From positions 1-47,488 of the forward strand of contig BEIA01000005.1 of assembly GCA_002898715.1 (NCBI GenBank): DNA of 47,488 nt, written 5' to 3'. The position numbers and the translations under genes are program-made. Below are positions 31,392 through 43,806 of the stretch, piece after piece; the first letter of the stretch is position 1, and each line of letters begins with the position of its first letter. Origin of the DNA: a bacterium HR24. GTDB taxonomy: Bacteria > Chloroflexota > Dehalococcoidia > SM23-28-2 > HRBIN24. The notes below the pieces were generated by a model. That model had not been told where the DNA came from, did not search any database, and worked only from the letters and a program-made list of their open reading frames with translations.

Positions 31392-32118
31392 GTTTTACGT
31401 CGAGCCGGGCACGGTGCGTGGCCGCCAGGTAACCCTGGGGCCGGAGGCGGCGCACCGCCTCGCGCGTGTGCTCCGGCTTCGCCCAGGCGAGCACGTGGTG
31501 CTGTTCGACGGCTCCGGCCAGGAGTGGGAGGTGGAGCTGAAGTCCATCGGGCCCAGGGGCGTGGCGGCGACGGTGGTCCAGGACTTGCCCTCCCCGCCGG
31601 AGCCGAGGGTACGATTGTCCCTGCTGGCCTGCCTGCTCAAGGAGCCGCGCTTCGAGCTGGTGCTGGAGAAGGCCGCGGAGCTGGGCGTGGCCGAGGTTGT
31701 GCCGGTGGTGGGCCGCCGCTCCGTCGTCAGACCCTGGAAGGAGGGGGCCAAGCAGGAGCGCTGGCGGCGCATCGTCATCGAAGCGGCGGAGCAGTGCGGC
31801 CGTGCCCGGCCGCCGGAGCTGCACACCCCCTTGCCCATGGCGCAGGCCCTGCGTCGCGCCCAGGGCCTGCGCATCGTGCCCTGGGAAGAGGAACGCAGCC
31901 AGGGCATGCGCCAGCTCCTCCGCTCCCTCGCCGCCCCGCCCGACCAGGTCTCCCTGCTGGTGGGGCCCGAGGGCGGCCTCGACCCACAAGAGGTCGAGGC
32001 CGCCCGTGAGGCCGGTTTCCAGGTCGTCAGCCTGGGCGAGCGCATATTGCGGGCCGAGACGGCAGCGCTGGTCGCCTGCGCCCTGGTGATGTACGAGCTG
32101 GGCGAGCTAGGGCCCTGA
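31384..32118 (+). CDS. rsmE: 16S rRNA (uracil1498-N3)-methyltransferase RsmE
   Basis: A 244-residue SPOUT-class methyltransferase that modifies U1498 of 16S rRNA. The N-terminal PUA-like domain starts MRRFYVEPG, and the knot motifs are RFELVLEKAAELGVAEVVPV, RWRRIVIEAAEQCGR, LLVGPEGGLDPQEVEAA and LGERILRAETAALVA. All are intact and the length is normal. Its ATG lies inside the last codons of prmA. The 3' end overlaps the convergent M23 peptidase gene by 12 bases. Confidence 0.95.
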   Translation: MRRFYVEPGTVRGRQVTLGPEAAHRLARVLRLRPGEHVVLFDGSGQEWEVELKSIGPRGVAATVVQDLPSPPEPRVRLSLLACLLKEPRFELVLEKAAELGVAEVVPVVGRRSVVRPWKEGAKQERWRRIVIEAAEQCGRARPPELHTPLPMAQALRRAQGLRIVPWEEERSQGMRQLLRSLAAPPDQVSLLVGPEGGLDPQEVEAAREAGFQVVSLGERILRAETAALVACALVMYELGELGP

Positions 32119-33027
32119 TATGGACTGCAGCCAGGCCATAGGGTCCACCCGTACGCCGCTCACCACCACTTCCCAGTGGAGGTGCGGCCCGCCAGCGAGG
32201 CCGGTGCTGCCCACCTTCCCCAACTCCTGGCCTGCCTGCACCGTCTGACCCTCCTGCACGGACACCTCCGAGAGGTGATGGTAGCCGCTGATGACCCCAG
32301 CCCCGTGGTCCACCACCACCGACAGCCCCCGCAGGTGCAGCTCCCGGGCCAGCACCACCCTGCCCCCCGCCGGTGCCAGCACCGGCGTGCCCTCGGCCAC
32401 GGCCAGGTCGGTGCCCGTGTGGGGCGTGTAGGGGCCGCCGTTGATGGAACGGCGGACGCCGAAGGGGTCGGAAATGGGGCCGTCCACGGGCATGTGCCAC
32501 GCTCCCTGCCAGAGCCGCTGTGCCGTGAAGGAACCGTAGGCCACCGCCAGCAGGCGCTGCTCCTCCTGGACGGCGGCGACATCGGCGAGGAGGCTGGCGG
32601 TGGCCGGGGGCAGGAATAGCTGCTCTCGCGGGTAGCCTCCGTCCACCACCTCCAGTGGGCGCTGGTCCACAGCGCGGCCGTTCTCCAGCAGCGTCACCTG
32701 GTAGGTACCAAGGTGCTGGTCCAGGGGTACGGGCAGATAGGCCAGCACCGCGTTTCCCTCCCGCACGGTGAGATAGCGACGGCCGCCCAGCTCCACCGCC
32801 ACCAGCCCCTCGGGCGCCGGGACTGCCACCGCCAGCACGACGGTGCCCTGTCGCGCCTGCGATGCCGAGAGCTCCAGGCGCGGCGGCGGGGGAGTGGGCG
32901 TGGGGAGCAGGCTTGCGGCGGGCGCAGGGCTCGAGGTCGAGGCAGGCCCCAGCGAGGACGCCTGCTCGCCGGCGGCGCATCCGCACGCCGCCAGGAGCAG
33001 GGCGAAGGCCAGAGTGAGCCGGAGCAT
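32107..33027 (-). CDS. M23-family metallopeptidase lipoprotein
   Basis: A 306-residue secreted protein. A short signal peptide ends in a lipobox-like L-A-A-C15 (a second Cys at 17 is also possible). A Ser/Pro/Thr-rich linker (about 20-48) is followed by a beta-rich middle domain, then the LytM/M23 peptidase domain at about 200-300. The zinc ligands are present: H-T-G-T-D-L-A (H and D) and G-P-H-L-H-W (second His of HxH), with GYHHLSEV between. Active M23 enzymes cut peptidoglycan cross-bridges outside the membrane, so this should be a wall hydrolase. The ATG at 33027 has no strong Shine-Dalgarno sequence; TATAAG lies close upstream. It is divergent from moxR. Confidence 0.9.
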   Translation of the reverse strand: MLRLTLAFALLLAACGCAAGEQASSLGPASTSSPAPAASLLPTPTPPPPRLELSASQARQGTVVLAVAVPAPEGLVAVELGGRRYLTVREGNAVLAYLPVPLDQHLGTYQVTLLENGRAVDQRPLEVVDGGYPREQLFLPPATASLLADVAAVQEEQRLLAVAYGSFTAQRLWQGAWHMPVDGPISDPFGVRRSINGGPYTPHTGTDLAVAEGTPVLAPAGGRVVLARELHLRGLSVVVDHGAGVISGYHHLSEVSVQEGQTVQAGQELGKVGSTGLAGGPHLHWEVVVSGVRVDPMAWLQSISGP

Positions 33028-33119
33028 ACCCCTGGACGTATCTTATAAGGCGCAATCAGCGGCTGCCCAGGGCCGCCGTCTGGGGCCCGGCAAAGATGGC
33101 AAACGGCGGACAGGATGTG

Positions 33120-33125
33120 TATAAT
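33120..33125 (+). promoter_or_regulatory. -10 element of the moxR operon promoter
   Basis: A perfect TATAAT at 33120-33125; the best -35 at the right distance (TGGCAA, 33097-33102) is weak, suggesting an activator or alternative initiation. The leader to the GTG at 33205 is about 73 bases. Confidence 0.55.
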
Positions 33126-33204: not shown

Positions 33205-34158
33205 GTGGACGAGGTGAGGGGACTTGCGCTCCGCATCATCGAGAACATCGAGCGGGTCATGGTGGGCAAGCGGCACGAGGTGGAGCTGGCCGTCATCGCC
33301 CTCATGTGCGGCGGCCACCTGCTCATCGAGGACGTTCCCGGCGTGGGCAAGACGATGCTGGCCCGCAGCCTGGCCCGCTCCACCGGCTGCAGCTTCCGGC
33401 GCATCCAGTTCACGCCCGACCTGCTACCCTCGGACGTCACCGGCGCGGCCATCTATAACCAGAAGAGCGGCGATTTCGAGTTTCGGCCGGGGCCCATCAT
33501 GGCCCAGATCGTCCTGGCCGACGAGATCAACCGGGCCACGCCCAAGACCCAGTCGGCGCTCCTGGAGGCGATGGAAGAGAGGCAGGTCACGGTGGACGGC
33601 GTCAGCCGTCCCCTGCCCCGGCCCTTCATGGTGCTGGCCACCCAGAACCCCATCGAGTACGAGGGCACTTTTCCCCTGCCGGAGGCACAGCTCGACCGCT
33701 TCTTCATGCGGGTGCACCTGGGCTACCCCTCTCCTCACGACGAAGTCACCATCATGGAGCGGCAGATGCTCTCCCACCCCATCGAGGAGCTGGAGCCTGT
33801 TTGCGGCCCGGACGACATCCTGCGCCTGCAGGAGGCGGTGCGGCAGGTGAAGGTAGACTCGCTGGTGAAGCAGTACATCGCCGCCGTCGTTGACGCTACC
33901 CGACATCATGAGGCCGTCTACCTGGGGGCCTCGCCGCGGGGTTCGCTCTCGCTGCAGCGCGGCTCGCAGGCCCGTGCCCTCCTGGACGGACGCGACTACG
34001 TGCTGCCCGACGATGTCAAGGCCCTGGCCTACCCTGTGCTGGGGCACCGCATAATGCTCAGCGCTGCCAGCCGGGTCAAGGGGACTACGGCGCAACAGGT
34101 GGTGGAGGATTGTCTAAGCCGGCTGCACGTCCCCGGCGTGCGCGCCCGCGGCTCCTAG
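33205..34158 (+). CDS. MoxR-type AAA+ ATPase
   Basis: A 317-residue AAA+ protein of the MoxR family. It has Walker A (DVPGVGKTM), the [15 protein letters not shown] insert strand, Walker B ([22 protein letters not shown]), sensor 1 (ATQNP), the [11 protein letters not shown] arginine-finger region and the C-terminal lid with [14 protein letters not shown]. MoxR ATPases act as chaperones that assemble or activate partner proteins, often those with vWA/DUF58 domains such as the next gene. It starts at GTG (33205) with GGAGG five bases upstream. It overlaps the DUF58 gene by 49 bases. Confidence 0.93.
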
Positions 34159-35417
34159 CCCGCGTCTTCGGCAGGCTGAGGGAGTCCCCCAACCTGGCCA
34201 TCGTCCTGGGGCTGGGCCTGGCGCTGTTGTTCCTGGGCTGGGCCTCTGGGTTCTGGGTTCTCATTCGCGCCGCCTACCTGCTCCTGGCCCTGGTGCCCAT
34301 CGGCTGGCTATGGGCGCGGGCCAACGTCAAGGGGCTGCGCCTGGAGGTGCGCAGGGGCCCCGACCGGCTCCACGCCGGCGAGACCACCTACTCCAGCTTT
34401 CGGCTGCAGAACCTGGACGGTTACCCCAAGCTGTGGCTGGAGGTGGAGGAGCCCACCAATATGCCCGGGGTGGCACCGAAGTCCGTTACCTTCCTCACTG
34501 CCAACGGTACGCGCACCTGGCGGCACGAGGTGCTGTGTCGGCGGCGCGGCCGTTACACCTTCGGGCCGGTGGCCGTGGCTAGCGGGGACCCCTTCGGCCT
34601 GTTCCGCCGCCGTCACGTCTTCGGCGACATGTGGGAGGTCTTGGTCTTCCCGGCCCCGGTGGAGCTGCCCTACGTCTGGCTGCCCTCAGCCCAGCTCTCG
34701 GGCGAGGGCGACCGCAGCCGTCCCACCCCTTACATCACCCCGACCGCCTCGGGGGTGCGCGAGTACCACCCGGGCGACGCCTTCAGCCGCATCCACTGGC
34801 TGACCACCGCCCGGCTGCGGCGGCTGATGGTGAAGACCTTCGACTTCACACCCACCAGCGATGTCTGGCTGGTGCTGGACCTAGAGCGGGGCGTCCACGC
34901 CGGCGAGGGCGACGAGAGCACCGAGGAGTATATGGTGACGGCGGCCTGCTCCCTAGCCCACCGGCTGCTGGGCCACGACCTGCGCGTCGGATACCTGGCC
35001 CAGGGCGAGGAGCTGTACCTGTTCCCGCCGGCCCGCGGCCCCCAGCAGTACGAGCGCATCATGGAAGCGTTGGCGGTGCTGGAGGCCAACGGCCAGGTGC
35101 CCCTGGGGCAGGTGTTGCTGGCCAACGAGCGCTCCTTCGGCCGCCACACGACCCTCATCGTCATCACGCCGTCGGTGGAGGAGGACTGGGTCACGGCGGT
35201 GCAGGCCCTGGTCCAACGAGGGGTGCAGGCGGCCGTGGTGCTTCTGGACGCGGGCACCTTCGGCGGACAGGAGGCATCCCTGCTCTCCTTCAGCGCTCTG
35301 GCTGCTCACGACATCTTGACCTACCTGGTGCGGCGGGGCGACGACCTGTCCCTGGCCCTGGGGCCCTCGGGGGCCAGCTCCGCTTACTGGCTGCACCGGT
35401 CCTGGAAGGAGAGGTGA
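34110..35417 (+). CDS. DUF58 domain membrane protein
   Basis: A 435-residue protein with two adjacent N-terminal membrane helices (about 29-65), then a beta domain with paired basic residues, and the DUF58 signature [20 protein letters not shown] (about 210-229) leading into a vWA-like segment ([11 protein letters not shown]). It is the standard partner of MoxR ATPases. The earliest available start is TTG at 34110; GGAGGA abuts it with no spacer, so initiation is unusual and probably depends on translation of moxR, whose end it overlaps. There is no other good start before the first helix. It is followed after four bases by the transglutaminase-like gene. Confidence 0.85.
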
Positions 35418-35421
35418 GACG

Positions 35422-37956
35422 ATGACGGCTGCCTCCCCTGCCTTGGTAACGGCCCCGGCTCGCTGGCTCTGGCGCAGGCTTCCCGGCTGGGAGGAGTGGC
35501 TCACCTTCGGCCTCGCCTTCCTCACCTTTGCCAGTGTGGCCTGGAGCATCCAGCATGCTCGCTGGGCCGACATCATGCCCAACCTGATGTTGCTGGGGCT
35601 GGGCGGCCTTCTCGCGGGCCAGCTGCTGGCCCGCCTGCCGCTCCCCAGCGCGGCCGCCCTGGCGGGTGGGCTGGTCCTCTGCCTCCTGTCCACCTTCCTG
35701 CAGGCGCTCTTCCTGGTGCGAGGCGAGGGCTTGATGGAGAAGGTGGACGTGCTCTACCTGCGGTTCCAGACCTTCTTCGAGATCGCCTTCGGCCAGGGCA
35801 TAAGCAACGATGTGCTGCCCTTCGCGGTGCTGGTGGCCGGGCTCACGTGGGCCGGCGCTTTCCTTTTCGCCTACTGCCTGTTCCGCTGGAGCCTGGCCTG
35901 GCCCGGCCTGTTCATGGGCGGCCTGACGCTATTCGTGAACTTCGTGGTGCTGAACCGGGGCGTGCTGGCCGCGTTCCTGCTCTACGCTGTGGCCGGGCTG
36001 CTGCTGCTGGCTCGGGCCAACCTCGCCCGACACCAGGCGCTGTGGAGACAGGAAGGCGTGCCTTACCCGTCGCTGATGGGGCTGAGTGTACTGCACGTGA
36101 CCTTCTGGGCGATTCTGGTGGTGCTGATGGTAGCCTGGGTGGTGCCCACCAATTACGGCCGACCGCTGGGCGCCGTGTGGGGAGTTGTGGCAGCCCCCTT
36201 CCAGGACTTGGCCCAGGACTGGTCGCGACTGGTGGGGCCGTTGCGGGGCGGACGGCTCCTGCCCAGCGCCGAGCTGGGCGACTTCCTGCCCCTACGCGGC
36301 CGCTTCCCGCTGCCCCTGCAAGGGGAGCTGGCCACGGTTCGCCCCATGCCCGGCCAGGACCCGGGCATCATCATCCTCCGCGGCGCCATATATGACCAGT
36401 ACACCACCGGCGGCTGGCGTTCGGACGAGTCGGTGCAGATGGACTGGCCCTTCGACGCGCCCTCCAGCCCGCAGGGGCTGCGGCAACAGGCGCGGGGGAA
36501 CCTGCGCGTGAACCCCGTCATCGTCCAGGTGCAGATGGAGTCGGGCAGCCCCCTGAGCTCCCTGATGCTGGTGCCGGGATGGCCCTTGCCCCTGGGCATC
36601 ATCACCTCCGGCTTCGACGTGCAGGTGCAGGTCCCCAAGCGAGCAGTGGTGAGGGTAGACCTGGGGTCATTGCCCTCCAGCGGCGATGCCGACACGCAGC
36701 AGGCGCGGGTAGCGGTGGACGCGGCGCTGCGCGAGCTGGGCACCCAGGCCCCCAGCGACGAGGCGCTGTCCCATGCCCTCCAGGGCCAGGGGTACGTGCT
36801 GGTAAAGACGGAGCGGGCCTCCGGAAACCGTCTGCGAAGGGTGGAGGTGGCGTCCGTGCGTTCGGTAATGGACAGCGCCACGTTCGTGCCCTCGCACCGG
36901 CTAGAGCCCGGCCAGAGCTACTGGGTGGCCGGGCTGCTGCCCGCTGCCAGCGCCGAAAGCCTGCGCGCAGCCTCGGCCAACTACCCCGAGTGGATACGGG
37001 ACACCTACCTGTCCCTCCCGCAGGACGTGCCGCGCAGGGTGCGACAGCTGGCGGCCCAGATCACCGCCAGCGCCGCTACGCCGTATGACAAGGTCGCGGC
37101 CGTCGAGGAGTTCATCAAGAACTTCCCCGTGGACAGCACCGTGGGCCCGCCTCCCCCTGGCCGCGACCCGGTGGACTATTTCCTCTTCGATGCTCGCCGG
37201 GGCTCGCCCGAGTTCCATGCCTCGGCCATGGTGGTGCTGCTACGGGCGGTAGGCGTACCGGCGCGCCTGGTGGTGGGAGTGGCCCTGACCCAGAACGATT
37301 TCGACCCGGAGCAGGGCGTCTACCACATATCGGCCCGCAACGCCTATCTGTGGCCGGAGGTGTACTTCCCCAACTCGGGCTGGCTGCCCTTCAGCCCGGT
37401 GCCCAGGGGCCACCTGCCTTTCAACTTCCCTTACCAGCAGTCGTTCCAGCCGCCCGTGTTCGGCGGGATCCCCACCGAGCCCGGGCCCGACCCCTTCGGC
37501 ATCGAGGGGGTCTTACCCTTCGAGGAGATGCCAGTCCTGGAGCCCCCGCCTCCGGTGGAGATGCCCTCCAGCACCGACTGGTCGTGGGTCTGGATGCTCC
37601 TGGCCGCTGTGGGTGGGGCAGCGCTGGTGACAGGGGCGGCGCGCCTGGCCTGGGAGCTGCCCCTGGGCCGGCTGCCCTACGCCATGCGCGTGTGGGAGAA
37701 GACGGTGCGGCTGGCCAACCTGGCCGCCTTGGGCCCGAGGCCCGGCGAGACGCCGCGGGAGTTCGTAGGGCGCCTGCACCGCCGCCTCTATCTGCGCGAC
37801 CTGGCCCTCGTAGCCGAGGTCTATGGCCGCGCCCGATACGGTGGCATGTCGCCCTCTAAAGACGAGGAGGAGCGCCTGAAGCAGCTCTGGCCACGGCTGC
37901 GCTCGGCCCTGGCCCGCGAGATACTCCGCCGGCCCTGGCGAAGGGCCGCCGAGTGA
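35422..37956 (+). CDS. TgpA-like transglutaminase-fold membrane protein without a catalytic triad
   Basis: An 844-residue protein laid out like TgpA: about six membrane helices in residues 25-245, a large external region, a transglutaminase-core segment (about 540-665), one more helix near 715-740 and a DUF4129-like cytoplasmic tail. The core is recognisable (EFHASAMVVLLRAVGVPARLV, PEVYFPNSGWLPF), but every catalytic position differs. The Cys position (RG-x-C-E-x-F-A) is P596, the His of HAW is Y642 and the Asp of FDPTP is S658. It is therefore probably a binding or scaffolding protein, not a protease or cross-linker. GGAG lies just before the ATG, inside the DUF58 end; the moxR-DUF58-TgpA order is conserved widely. 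Confidence 0.85.
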   Translation: MTAASPALVTAPARWLWRRLPGWEEWLTFGLAFLTFASVAWSIQHARWADIMPNLMLLGLGGLLAGQLLARLPLPSAAALAGGLVLCLLSTFLQALFLVRGEGLMEKVDVLYLRFQTFFEIAFGQGISNDVLPFAVLVAGLTWAGAFLFAYCLFRWSLAWPGLFMGGLTLFVNFVVLNRGVLAAFLLYAVAGLLLLARANLARHQALWRQEGVPYPSLMGLSVLHVTFWAILVVLMVAWVVPTNYGRPLGAVWGVVAAPFQDLAQDWSRLVGPLRGGRLLPSAELGDFLPLRGRFPLPLQGELATVRPMPGQDPGIIILRGAIYDQYTTGGWRSDESVQMDWPFDAPSSPQGLRQQARGNLRVNPVIVQVQMESGSPLSSLMLVPGWPLPLGIITSGFDVQVQVPKRAVVRVDLGSLPSSGDADTQQARVAVDAALRELGTQAPSDEALSHALQGQGYVLVKTERASGNRLRRVEVASVRSVMDSATFVPSHRLEPGQSYWVAGLLPAASAESLRAASANYPEWIRDTYLSLPQDVPRRVRQLAAQITASAATPYDKVAAVEEFIKNFPVDSTVGPPPPGRDPVDYFLFDARRGSPEFHASAMVVLLRAVGVPARLVVGVALTQNDFDPEQGVYHISARNAYLWPEVYFPNSGWLPFSPVPRGHLPFNFPYQQSFQPPVFGGIPTEPGPDPFGIEGVLPFEEMPVLEPPPPVEMPSSTDWSWVWMLLAAVGGAALVTGAARLAWELPLGRLPYAMRVWEKTVRLANLAALGPRPGETPREFVGRLHRRLYLRDLALVAEVYGRARYGGMSPSKDEEERLKQLWPRLRSALAREILRRPWRRAAE

Positions 37957-40124: not shown

Positions 40125-42425
40125 CTAATCCTGCAGCTTGCCCAGGGCGCGCAGTACGCGCTCCGGCGTGATGGGCACCTCGAAGATCCGCGCGCCCACG
40201 GCGTCCGCTACAGCGTTGGCTACCGCTGCCGGCCCGGGGACGATAGACGGCTCCCCCACGATGCGTGCCCCGTAAGGCCCCTCCTCCGAGGGCACCTCGA
40301 CGATGATAGCTTCGATGGGTGGCACGTCGCGCGTGGTAGGCAGACGGTAGTCGAGCAGGTTGGGGTTCAGCAGGCGCCCCCTCTCGTCGTAGACCATCTC
40401 TTCGCTGAGGGCGATGCCCAGTCCCTGGGCCGCGCCACCCTGCATCTGCCCCTCCACCGACTTGGGGTTGATGGCGAAGCCCACGTCCTGGGCCACGGCG
40501 TAGCGCAGCACTGTCACTTCGCCCGTGTCCGGGTCCACCTCCACCTCGGCCACCTGGGCGCTGAAGCCGGGGGCCTGCCTGCGGGCGGTGATAGCGCCCC
40601 GGCCGACGATGGGAGCGTAGCGGGCACCGAAGCCGGTAGTGAGCCGCCCCAGCTCGGCGAAGGTGACCTGCTTTTCGGGCTGGCCTTTGGCCCGCACCAC
40701 ACCGTCCTCCATCTCCAGCTCCTCGGCCGGGACCTCCAGCCGCTGGGAGGCGATGGCCAGTATCTGCTGGCGGGCGTCCTCGGCGGCCAGCTTCACCGCC
40801 CGCCCCACGGTGTAGGTCGTCTTGGAGCCAGCGGTCATGCCGGCGTAGGGTGCCGTCTTGGTATCGCCGGTGACGACCGAGACCATGGACAGTGGCAGGT
40901 TCAGCTCCTCGGCGGCGATCTGAGCAAAGGTAGTGTTGGTGCCGGTGATATCGGCCGCGCCCACGGTCACGTTGACGGTGCCGTCGGCGTTCAGGCCCAC
41001 CGTGGCCGAGGCCGGTTGCAGGCCGCCTAGCCAGCCGCCAACAGCCACCCCCACGCCCCGGTTGGGTCGCTGGCGCGTCTGGTGGCGCTGCTGCCAGATC
41101 TCCGTCCGGGCGATGGCCTCCAGGCACTCCTTCAGGCCGATGGCCGGGTAGGGCTGGCCGCTGGGCAGGGGATCGCCCTTCTCGACGGCATTCTTCAGTC
41201 GCACTTCCAGGGGGTCAAGCTCCAGGCGCTGGGCCAGCATGTCCATGGCGCTCTCCAGGGCGAAGGCTACATGGGGAGCGCCGGGCGCCCGCAGCGCGCC
41301 CACGCTCACCTTGTTGGTCAGCACCTCGAAGCCCTCGATATCCAGGTTGGGGCACTTGTAAGAGCCGCCGATGAGGAGGCAGCCCGGCAGCACCGGCGCG
41401 CCGGGAAAAGCGCCCGAGTCATAGATGACTCGCGCCTGCAGGGCCACGAGCGTACCATCGGCCTTCATGCCTGCCTTGAGCTGGACCACGGCCTGGGGGG
41501 CAGGGGTGGCGGCCAGCATGTCCTCCTTGCGGCTCATGGCAAGCTTGACCGGCCGCCGGGCGTGGATGGCCAGCGCGCCCACCAGCGCTTCGTAGAGGTA
41601 GATCTTGCCGCCGAAGCCGCCGCCCACCTCGGTGGCCACCACCCGCACGCGGGCGTCGGGGAGGCCCAGGGTGCGGGCCACCTCGTGCCTCACGTGGAAG
41701 GGGGCCTGGGTGCTGGACCAGATGGTCAGCTCGCCGTTGGCGTCGTAGTCGGCGATGGTCACGTGGGGCTCGATATACGACTGGTGCACCATGGCCGAGC
41801 GCCAGGTGCCTTCCACCACGGCGTCGGCCTCAGCGAACCCCGCCTCGATGTCCCCCCGCTTGAAGGTGATGGTGGAGGAGACGTTGCTGGGGCGGGACTG
41901 AGCTTGCTCCTGCTCCGCTTCGATGGTGATGTGGCCCTGCTCCTCCGAGCGGTCGGCTTCCTGGATGGCGGAGGTGCGGGCCAGGGGCGAGTCCTCGCGC
42001 ATGGCCTCCAGGGGGTCCACCACCGCCGGCAGCTCTTCGTACTCCACTTCCACCAAGTCGCGGGCGTGGGCAGCAGCGTAGGGGTCGCGCGCCAGCACCG
42101 CTGCCACCGGCTGGCCGTAGAAGAGCACCTCGTCCCGGGCCAGGAGCGTCTGCTGGCGGACATCGGGGTTGATACGGTGGGAAGGCAGGTCGGCAGCGGT
42201 AACCACCGCCTCCACGCCGGGCACAGCCAGGGCCTTGCTGACGTCGATGCGGCGGATGCGGGCGTGGGCCACAGGGGCGTGCACCAGCTTCGCGTGCAGG
42301 AGGCGGGGAAAGCGCAGGTCATCGCCATAGGGTGTCTCGCCGGTCACCTTGCCGGTGGCGTCGATGCGGTCCACGGGCCTGCCCACGTGCCGGAAGCCGG
42401 TGCGCTCGAGGGTCTCGCGGGCCAT
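40125..42425 (-). CDS. xanthine dehydrogenase-family molybdopterin-binding subunit
   Basis: A 766-residue large subunit of a molybdenum hydroxylase. Features in order are the N-terminal a/b hammerhead (PYGDDLRFPRLLHAKL), TEVGGGFGGK (molybdopterin contact, about 290), the segment ALRAPGAPHVAFALE (about 380), and the C-terminal base E725 in GARIVGEPSIVPGPAAVANA. The glutamate that drives hydroxylation is therefore present. The CO-dehydrogenase loop (AYxCSFR) is absent, which excludes form I CO dehydrogenase; the substrate (N-heterocycle, aldehyde or aromatic) is not identified. The ATG at 42425 has GGAGG upstream. It forms a complex with the 2Fe-2S and FAD subunits encoded just before it. Confidence 0.93.
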   Translation of the reverse strand: MARETLERTGFRHVGRPVDRIDATGKVTGETPYGDDLRFPRLLHAKLVHAPVAHARIRRIDVSKALAVPGVEAVVTAADLPSHRINPDVRQQTLLARDEVLFYGQPVAAVLARDPYAAAHARDLVEVEYEELPAVVDPLEAMREDSPLARTSAIQEADRSEEQGHITIEAEQEQAQSRPSNVSSTITFKRGDIEAGFAEADAVVEGTWRSAMVHQSYIEPHVTIADYDANGELTIWSSTQAPFHVRHEVARTLGLPDARVRVVATEVGGGFGGKIYLYEALVGALAIHARRPVKLAMSRKEDMLAATPAPQAVVQLKAGMKADGTLVALQARVIYDSGAFPGAPVLPGCLLIGGSYKCPNLDIEGFEVLTNKVSVGALRAPGAPHVAFALESAMDMLAQRLELDPLEVRLKNAVEKGDPLPSGQPYPAIGLKECLEAIARTEIWQQRHQTRQRPNRGVGVAVGGWLGGLQPASATVGLNADGTVNVTVGAADITGTNTTFAQIAAEELNLPLSMVSVVTGDTKTAPYAGMTAGSKTTYTVGRAVKLAAEDARQQILAIASQRLEVPAEELEMEDGVVRAKGQPEKQVTFAELGRLTTGFGARYAPIVGRGAITARRQAPGFSAQVAEVEVDPDTGEVTVLRYAVAQDVGFAINPKSVEGQMQGGAAQGLGIALSEEMVYDERGRLLNPNLLDYRLPTTRDVPPIEAIIVEVPSEEGPYGARIVGEPSIVPGPAAVANAVADAVGARIFEVPITPERVLRALGKLQD

Positions 42426-42441
42426 TGCTCTCCCTCCTCGC

Positions 42442-42918
42442 TCAATCGCCCCGCATCCGCTCGGCGGCGGCCAGGACGGCCTCGTAGATCTTGGCGTAGC
42501 CGGTGCAGCGACACAGATTGCCCGCCAGCCCCAGCCGCACCTCTTCCAGGGTGGGATTGGGGTTGCGGCGCAGCAGGTCATAGGCAGCCATCACCATGCC
42601 GGGGATGCAATAGCCACACTGGACGGCCCCCTTCTCCACGAAGGCCTGCTGGACGGGGTGCAGGTTGCCGTCTGTGGCCAGGCCCTCGATGGTGGTCACC
42701 TGGCAGCCGTCGGCCTCCACCGCCAGCATGATGCAGGAGGTGACCAGGCGACCGTCCACCAGCATGGAGCAGGCTCCGCAGTCCCCGGTGCCGCAGCCCT
42801 CCTTGCTGCCGGTGAGGCCCAGCTCCTCGCGCACGGTGTACAGGAGGCTCCACCAGGGCTCCACCGCTACCTCGTAGGCCTCGCCATTGACGGTCAGGTT
42901 GATGAGGCGTTTGGGCAT
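42442..42918 (-). CDS. molybdenum hydroxylase 2Fe-2S subunit
   Basis: A 158-residue two-cluster ferredoxin-like subunit. The N-terminal plant-type 2Fe-2S site is C42-G-T-G-D-C47-G-A-C50 plus C62. The C-terminal four-helix site is C101-G-Y-C104 and C136-R-C138-T-G-Y. It passes electrons from the molybdenum centre to FAD. The ATG follows the FAD subunit stop by three bases. All ligands are intact and length is normal. Confidence 0.95.
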   Translation of the reverse strand: MPKRLINLTVNGEAYEVAVEPWWSLLYTVREELGLTGSKEGCGTGDCGACSMLVDGRLVTSCIMLAVEADGCQVTTIEGLATDGNLHPVQQAFVEKGAVQCGYCIPGMVMAAYDLLRRNPNPTLEEVRLGLAGNLCRCTGYAKIYEAVLAAAERMRGD

Positions 42919-42921
42919 GGC

Positions 42922-43806
42922 CTAGCCCCTCCTGGCCCTCTCGATGGCCTCGTGCAGCAGCCTCTCGGTCACGACCTCCACCAGGTGGCGGCGGAAGGCG
43001 GCCGAGCCACGCACATCGGAGATGGGAGTCGCCTCCTCCCGGGCCAGGGCCGCCGCCCGCGCGATGGCCTCGGGAGTAGGGGCCTGGCCTTCCAGGGCCG
43101 CCTCGGCTCGTCGCGCCCGTATGGGCGTGGGGGCCACCGCCCCCAGGGCGATGCGCGCCCTTTTCAGCGTCCGACCATCCCCGTCCAGCTCGACGGCCAC
43201 GGCCACCCCCACCACGGCGATATCCATCTGCTTGCGGGGGGTGTGGCGTCGGTAGACGGCGGCGGACCGGGGCGCGGGCGGCGGCAACAGGAACTCCACC
43301 AGCAACTCGCCAGGGCGCAGGACGGTCCGCCCCGGCCCCAGCCAGAACTGCTCTACCGGCAGGACCCTCTCGCCCTCGGGGCCCACGACGCGTGCCCTTG
43401 CCTCCAGCGCCAGCAGGGGCGGCGCCGTGTCGGCCGAAGGGGCGGCGTTGCAGGCATTGCCGCCGATGGTGGCCATGTTCATGGTCTGGAGCGAACCGAC
43501 GATCCCGGCCCCGTCCACGAGGGCCGGGTACCGCTCCCGCACCAGAGCGCTCTCCACCACCTCGGACATGGTGAGGCCAGCGCCGAGCCGGAGCCCCTCG
43601 CCCTCGCGCCACTCCAGCACCTTCAGCTCGGGCAGGCGACGGAGGGAGACGAGATAGCGCGGATACGGGAACTTGTGGCCGCCCTCCTTGAGCTGGACCA
43701 CCAGGTCGGTGCCGCCGGCGATGGGACGGCCGCCCTCGCCTTCGCGGCGGAACGTGTCCAGGGCCTCGTCCAGACTCTTGGGGGAGAAGTGGGCGAAGGG
43801 CCTCAT
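42922..43806 (-). CDS. molybdenum hydroxylase FAD-binding subunit
   Basis: A 294-residue CoxM/XdhB-type flavoprotein: IAGGTDLVVQLKEG (first FAD loop), the TMNMATIGGNACNAAPSADT loop (second FAD site) and the C-terminal CO-dehydrogenase flavoprotein domain. It hands electrons to the terminal acceptor. It is the first gene of the operon FAD - 2Fe-2S - molybdopterin - cupin. The ATG has no Shine-Dalgarno sequence. Instead, its first bases form ATGA with the stop of a 10-codon reading frame that begins at the predicted transcription start, so initiation is probably by translational coupling. Confidence 0.92.
   Translation of the reverse strand: MRPFAHFSPKSLDEALDTFRREGEGGRPIAGGTDLVVQLKEGGHKFPYPRYLVSLRRLPELKVLEWREGEGLRLGAGLTMSEVVESALVRERYPALVDGAGIVGSLQTMNMATIGGNACNAAPSADTAPPLLALEARARVVGPEGERVLPVEQFWLGPGRTVLRPGELLVEFLLPPPAPRSAAVYRRHTPRKQMDIAVVGVAVAVELDGDGRTLKRARIALGAVAPTPIRARRAEAALEGQAPTPEAIARAAALAREEATPISDVRGSAAFRRHLVEVVTERLLHEAIERARRG

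Follow-up and report, generated by a model that had tools for sequence, protein, structure and literature searches.

Does a TgpA-like membrane protein that has none of the residues of a transglutaminase active site still act as an enzyme in its MoxR operon, or is it kept there for something else? This question is raised by an open, intact reading frame at positions 35422..37956 on the forward strand of the window, the 47,488-nucleotide stretch of DNA from bacterium HR24 analysed here. A sequence-only reading had described its product as a TgpA-like protein devoid of the whole transglutaminase triad and had proposed a structural or ligand-binding role for its external domain. On the basis of Pfam matches, alignment, an AlphaFold2 model and superposition, we identify the product, of 844 amino acids, as a TgpA-like pseudo-transglutaminase.

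The gene lies in a MoxR-DUF58 operon, the setting of TgpA-like proteins. A MoxR-type AAA+ ATPase of 317 amino acids with the Walker motifs GVGKT and DEINRA (33205..34158, forward strand; PF07726, E 1.7e-65; PF17863, E 1.3e-24) is followed by a membrane-anchored, vWA-like DUF58 protein that was also aligned across the class (34110..35417, forward strand; PF01882, E 1.2e-18); the putative TTG start of the latter at 34110, which makes it overlap moxR, is a gene-calling choice. The ATG of the tgpA-like gene is found 4 nt past the DUF58 stop codon, with the ribosome-binding-site-like GGAGAGGTGAG immediately 5' of it. A candidate sigma-70-like promoter, ATGGCA-18-TATAAT, lies 5' of the moxR-led operon (33096..33125, forward strand) and is identified by motif match, with 10 of 12 positions matching and a mean of 0.1 such sites expected in shuffled sequence. 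The divergent neighbour on the reverse strand is an M23 peptidase gene with a lipoprotein-like signal (32107..33027; PF01551, E 4e-30). At least seven families of the triad-less clade described below have such a gene, with a lipoprotein-like N-terminus, in divergent orientation beside the operon (the window and loci L046, L047, L054, L062, L073, L080, L090, L091, L112 and L119). Elsewhere in the window, a three-gene molybdenum hydroxylase cluster encoding molybdopterin, 2Fe-2S and FAD subunits (40125-43806, reverse strand) is unrelated to the TgpA finding.

The architecture of the protein is that of TgpA. Its model has eight N-terminal membrane helices in residues 23-240 (35488..36141, forward strand, as are all features of the protein; assigned from model secondary structure, with pLDDT mostly above 90), an extracytoplasmic domain in residues 246-722 (36157..37587; from sequence, model and superposition) and a C-terminal membrane helix in residues 721-748 (37582..37665), after which comes DUF4129 in residues 763-823 (37708..37890; PF13559, E 2.4e-10, 40.7 bits against a cut-off of 24.8). 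Within the extracytoplasmic domain, the transglutaminase core of residues 541-659 (37042..37398) is matched by Transglut_core PF01841 with E 9.5e-22 and 77.8 bits against a cut-off of 23. TgpA_N PF11992 gave no match at E 1 or better, a model that is itself weak in Chloroflexota (28-37 bits for intact homologues and none for L016), and a search of NCBIfam assigned no family. The AlphaFold2 model, built from 80 homologues, has a mean pLDDT of 88.2 and a pTM of 0.80, with core blocks at 93-98. Its residues 282-668 superpose on TgpA (PDB 6g4h) with a Z score of 25.8 and an rmsd of 2.8 Å over 264 residues, so that the TgpA ectodomain fold is present. The model, the Pfam matches and the gene order thus agree with the earlier statement that the membrane helices are intact and the moxR-DUF58-TgpA context normal, and the latter extends to relatives: MoxR and DUF58 genes lie directly upstream on the same strand in all 38 loci of the triad-less clade with enough flanking sequence.

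Active transglutaminases use a Cys-His-Asp/Glu triad, and the window protein has Pro, Tyr and Ser in its place. In a pairwise alignment with Pseudomonas aeruginosa TgpA (PDB 6g49, E 1.4e-16), the catalytic Cys, His and Asp fall on P596, Y642 and S658, as had been read from the letters, and the same three columns are returned by two separately made alignments, one by profile and one of full-length proteins. In the model, P596 (codon 37207..37209, forward strand) is the first residue of helix 596-609, Y642 (37345..37347, forward strand) lies within strand 641-649 and S658 (37393..37395, forward strand) comes after strand 653-656; catalytic positions would be expected in this order. The window protein has therefore lost the whole transglutaminase triad while keeping the fold, and from the absent residues we infer that it has lost activity as well.

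To place this protein among its relatives, homologues from the class and the phylum, drawn from 145 genomes, were classified at the three triad positions; relatives were found by an alignment query of genome contigs, single-sequence patterns from a protein query having given none that was confirmed. The usual triad in Chloroflexota proved to be Cys-His-Glu. This corrects the expectation of Asp as third residue, since Glu occupies that position in 51 of the 52 proteins with both Cys and His and Asp in one. Outside the class, nearly all sampled proteins have Cys-His-Glu and a few have Ser-His-Glu or Ala-His-Glu. Within it, Cys-His-Glu, Ser-His-Glu and Ala-His-Asn occur together with a large group lacking both Cys and His, in which the states are Phe-Tyr-Asn, Phe-Phe-Ser/Asn, Phe-Trp-Asn, Tyr-Tyr-Asp, Phe-Tyr-Ser and a few others. 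The typical shifts in this group are from Cys to Phe or Tyr at 596, from Phe or Tyr to His or Gln at 599, from His to Tyr, Phe or Trp at 642 and from Glu to Asn or Ser at 658. The family of the window protein is the most divergent, with Pro-Tyr-Ser in the window protein and its congener and Val-Met-Ala and Val-Leu-Leu in others.

The proteins with Ser for Cys that keep His and Glu form a separate second pattern (L012, L017-L020, L026, L029, L102, L105, L111, L113-L115, L124 and others). Their Ser could be a nucleophile, their pocket could serve binding only, or they could represent a step towards loss.

The triad-less proteins share one origin. In a tree of 140 rows from which the triad columns had been removed, 57 rows from 14 families form one branch with an SH-aLRT support of 100, which comprises every full-length triad-less protein except L023, and no member has Cys or His at the catalytic positions. 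When the whole transglutaminase domain was removed to avoid circularity, the clade persisted (SH-aLRT 100), as it did under a mixture model (bootstrap 100, SH-aLRT 100). The tree of the adjacent DUF58 gene recovers the same clade with a support of 98, which indicates that the operon was inherited together. State changes counted on the 140-row tree number only two for His and eight for Cys. The survey thus bears out the loss itself; what is incomplete is the picture of a single odd protein, as the loss is ancestral to a clade of at least 14 families. By these phylogenies the clade is an ancient pseudoenzyme lineage spread across at least 14 families of the class Dehalococcoidia, and not a case of recent decay. 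The exception, L023 (genome G005 of family f7, 54% complete), has Ala-Leu-Asn, stands alone outside the main clade and possibly marks an independent loss of the triad.

Could the ectodomain nevertheless be a relic on its way out, with only the membrane and DUF4129 parts still of use? Such relaxed decay draws on the family of the window protein, in which the former triad sites vary (Pro/Val, Tyr/Met/Leu, Ser/Ala/Leu), the core shows less similarity to the cores of the rest of the order, and the core dN/dS of the window pair, at 0.33, is higher and indicates weaker constraint in that family. Across the clade, however, conservation of the core falls only slightly short of that in intact proteins at matched membrane-domain identity, and eight of its positions (G594, R608, P613, G619, W644, P650, G653 and W654) are invariant in 57 of 57 members. 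Furthermore, the former active-site segment has the lowest or nearly the lowest dN/dS in most pairs, with NG86 values of 0.03-0.12 in ten close or moderately diverged clade pairs, 0.18 between the window protein and its congener and 0.04-0.15 in intact and Cys-to-Ser pairs, all of them rough because dS is high and near saturation in some pairs. The ectodomain has also persisted over 14 families. We regard decay as improbable, and these sequence comparisons show the clade to be under purifying selection.

In the class-wide alignment the DUF58 proteins are similar in all triad states, and a coordinated decay of DUF58 with triad loss was rejected on this ground. These proteins retain the leading Asp of the vWA metal-site motif and lack the serines that follow in DxSxS, whatever the state of the TgpA-like protein.

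Less probable still is an altered chemistry in the same cleft, with another nucleophile or a metal site, for example on H599 (codon 37216..37218, forward strand). By conservation this position is suggestive, as it lies one helix turn from P596 and is His in 38 of the 57 clade members and Phe or Tyr in nearly all intact relatives. It is, however, Gln in 12 members and another residue in seven, and neither H635 nor any of the nearby Ser residues is conserved. The window protein has only two cysteines, C87 and C152, both in membrane helices, and the ectodomain has none, which excludes a shifted or replacement thiol active site; ectodomain Cys is absent from 52 of the 57 clade members and present exactly once in 47 of the 52 intact proteins. 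Residue conservation over all 57 members revealed no conserved pair of Ser and His, nor a set of Ser, His and an acidic residue. An alternative catalytic set in the cleft, the finding that was to count against the sequence-only reading, was accordingly rejected on residue content and conservation.

A cause in the environment of the enzyme, namely that the triad was lost after the peptidoglycan, its presumed substrate environment, is hardly credible for this clade. Part of the class does lack peptidoglycan genes, by our own MraY searches as well as by published work, in which the cell-wall cluster is absent from Dehalococcoidales and SAR202 and retained by basal lineages, Tepidiformales among them (PMC10608941), and all 21 Cys-to-Ser proteins in the class come from genomes without an MraY match. 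Yet 58 of the 60 genomes from the triad-less clade have MraY, and the other two are drafts at 72% and 79% completeness; MurG-like matches occur in all 20 clade genomes searched for them; triad loss in the clade thus did not come from loss of peptidoglycan. Moreover, 12 of 19 Cys-His genomes lack MraY and still keep Cys-His, and TgpA-like proteins are retained where peptidoglycan genes are missing. Nor is a link between Cys-to-Ser replacement and MraY absence proposed, because the raw count of 21 of 21 was unsupported by phylogenetically independent pairs and reflects shared ancestry. Finally, an assembly or sequencing error or a misalignment of the three positions can be dismissed, draft assembly though the genome is, given that Pro, Tyr and Ser recur in the congener G001, that the whole clade lacks the catalytic residues and that three alignments agree.

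A search for an active paralogue, suggested by the earlier reading, yielded none by PF01841 in the window's genome or in two near-complete relatives. The TgpA-like protein is the single PF01841 match in the window's genome (a draft assembly, 91.8% complete), and the Tepidiforma-like genomes G062 and G152 (single-contig, 98% complete) each have one PF01841 protein, the inactive one. Some clade genomes, of families f21 and f6, hold further PF01841 proteins of other sizes. One of these proteins, L273 in G045, is encoded by a frame of its own of 369 amino acids and shows an intact Cys-His-Asp pattern, so that not every clade genome need be without an active transglutaminase.

The explanation that we consider much the most probable is that the window protein belongs to an ancient clade of TgpA-like pseudo-transglutaminases that lost the triad once and kept the protein as a non-catalytic membrane component of the MoxR-DUF58-TgpA system. 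Loss of the catalytic Cys-His-Glu would date to the ancestor shared by all clade members within the class, with the protein retained ever since as the membrane component of the operon. Its ectodomain would then work without catalysis, as a structural scaffold or as a protein- or ligand-binding surface outside the membrane, and the helices and DUF4129 would link it to the MoxR ATPase in the cytoplasm and to the DUF58 adaptor. In most of the clade, the Phe that stands for Cys and the Tyr, Phe or Trp that stands for His suggest a former active-site pocket that is now filled, presumably packed shut by aromatic side chains. This points somewhat more to a structural role, or to binding at the surface, than to an original substrate that still binds in its original site. 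Even the replacement residues have drifted in the family of the window protein (Pro/Val at the first position, Tyr/Met/Leu at the second). Because evolution has preserved both protein and operon, the protein probably serves as a structural or binding component and not as an enzyme. A non-catalytic role, as first proposed for this protein, is thus the best reading of a true loss in a protein whose fold, helices and operon are preserved and which selection maintains.

Transglutaminase folds without catalytic function are known from erythrocyte protein 4.2 and from XPC/Rad4. Both appear in the list of structural matches to our model, at a distance (Z about 8 or less). They resemble the window protein in using the fold without catalysis and differ from it in being eukaryotic and soluble or peripheral, in belonging to other complexes and in lacking such an operon or membrane helices. 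Closer likenesses are found in P. aeruginosa TgpA (PA2873; PDB 6g49 and 6g4h), which shares the membrane helices and the periplasmic transglutaminase-fold domain and is encoded in a co-transcribed operon, PA2875-PA2873, similar to that in the window (PMC3507681). TgpA, however, has the Cys-His-Asp triad, shows transglutaminase activity in vitro and is critical for viability (PMC3507681), whereas all three residues are missing from the window protein. The intact Chloroflexota TgpA-like proteins are homologous to it over their full length and have the same MoxR and DUF58 neighbours, but keep Cys and His, have Glu as third residue and carry one ectodomain Cys in 47 of 52 cases. In the mostly open-access literature searched, we found nothing on inactive TgpA-like or DUF3488/DUF4129 proteins beyond TgpA, nor any experiment that asks whether it is catalysis that makes TgpA essential. 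Inactive transglutaminase folds as such are therefore not new, and an inactive TgpA lineage, as these sequences suggest, was not found described.

The transglutaminase annotation of these proteins in the class is misleading, even though their Pfam scores still point to a transglutaminase. A tentative extension, which we think rather doubtful at present, is that transglutaminase chemistry is dispensable in MoxR-DUF58-TgpA systems generally: the conserved core function of TgpA-like proteins may be that of a scaffold, or of a receptor for some envelope component, with no catalysis involved. Catalysis would then be optional, lost once in full in the triad-less clade and, in other parts of the phylum, several times through a change of the Cys only. 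Tepidiforma, a genus in which cultivated species have been named, has relatives in the clade (the G062 protein shares 87% identity with its counterpart in Tepidiforma sp. KatS3mg064), which makes the matter testable. Retention of the protein together with its MoxR-DUF58 operon in a lineage devoid of the triad amounts to a natural experiment on whether the enzyme activity of TgpA matters.
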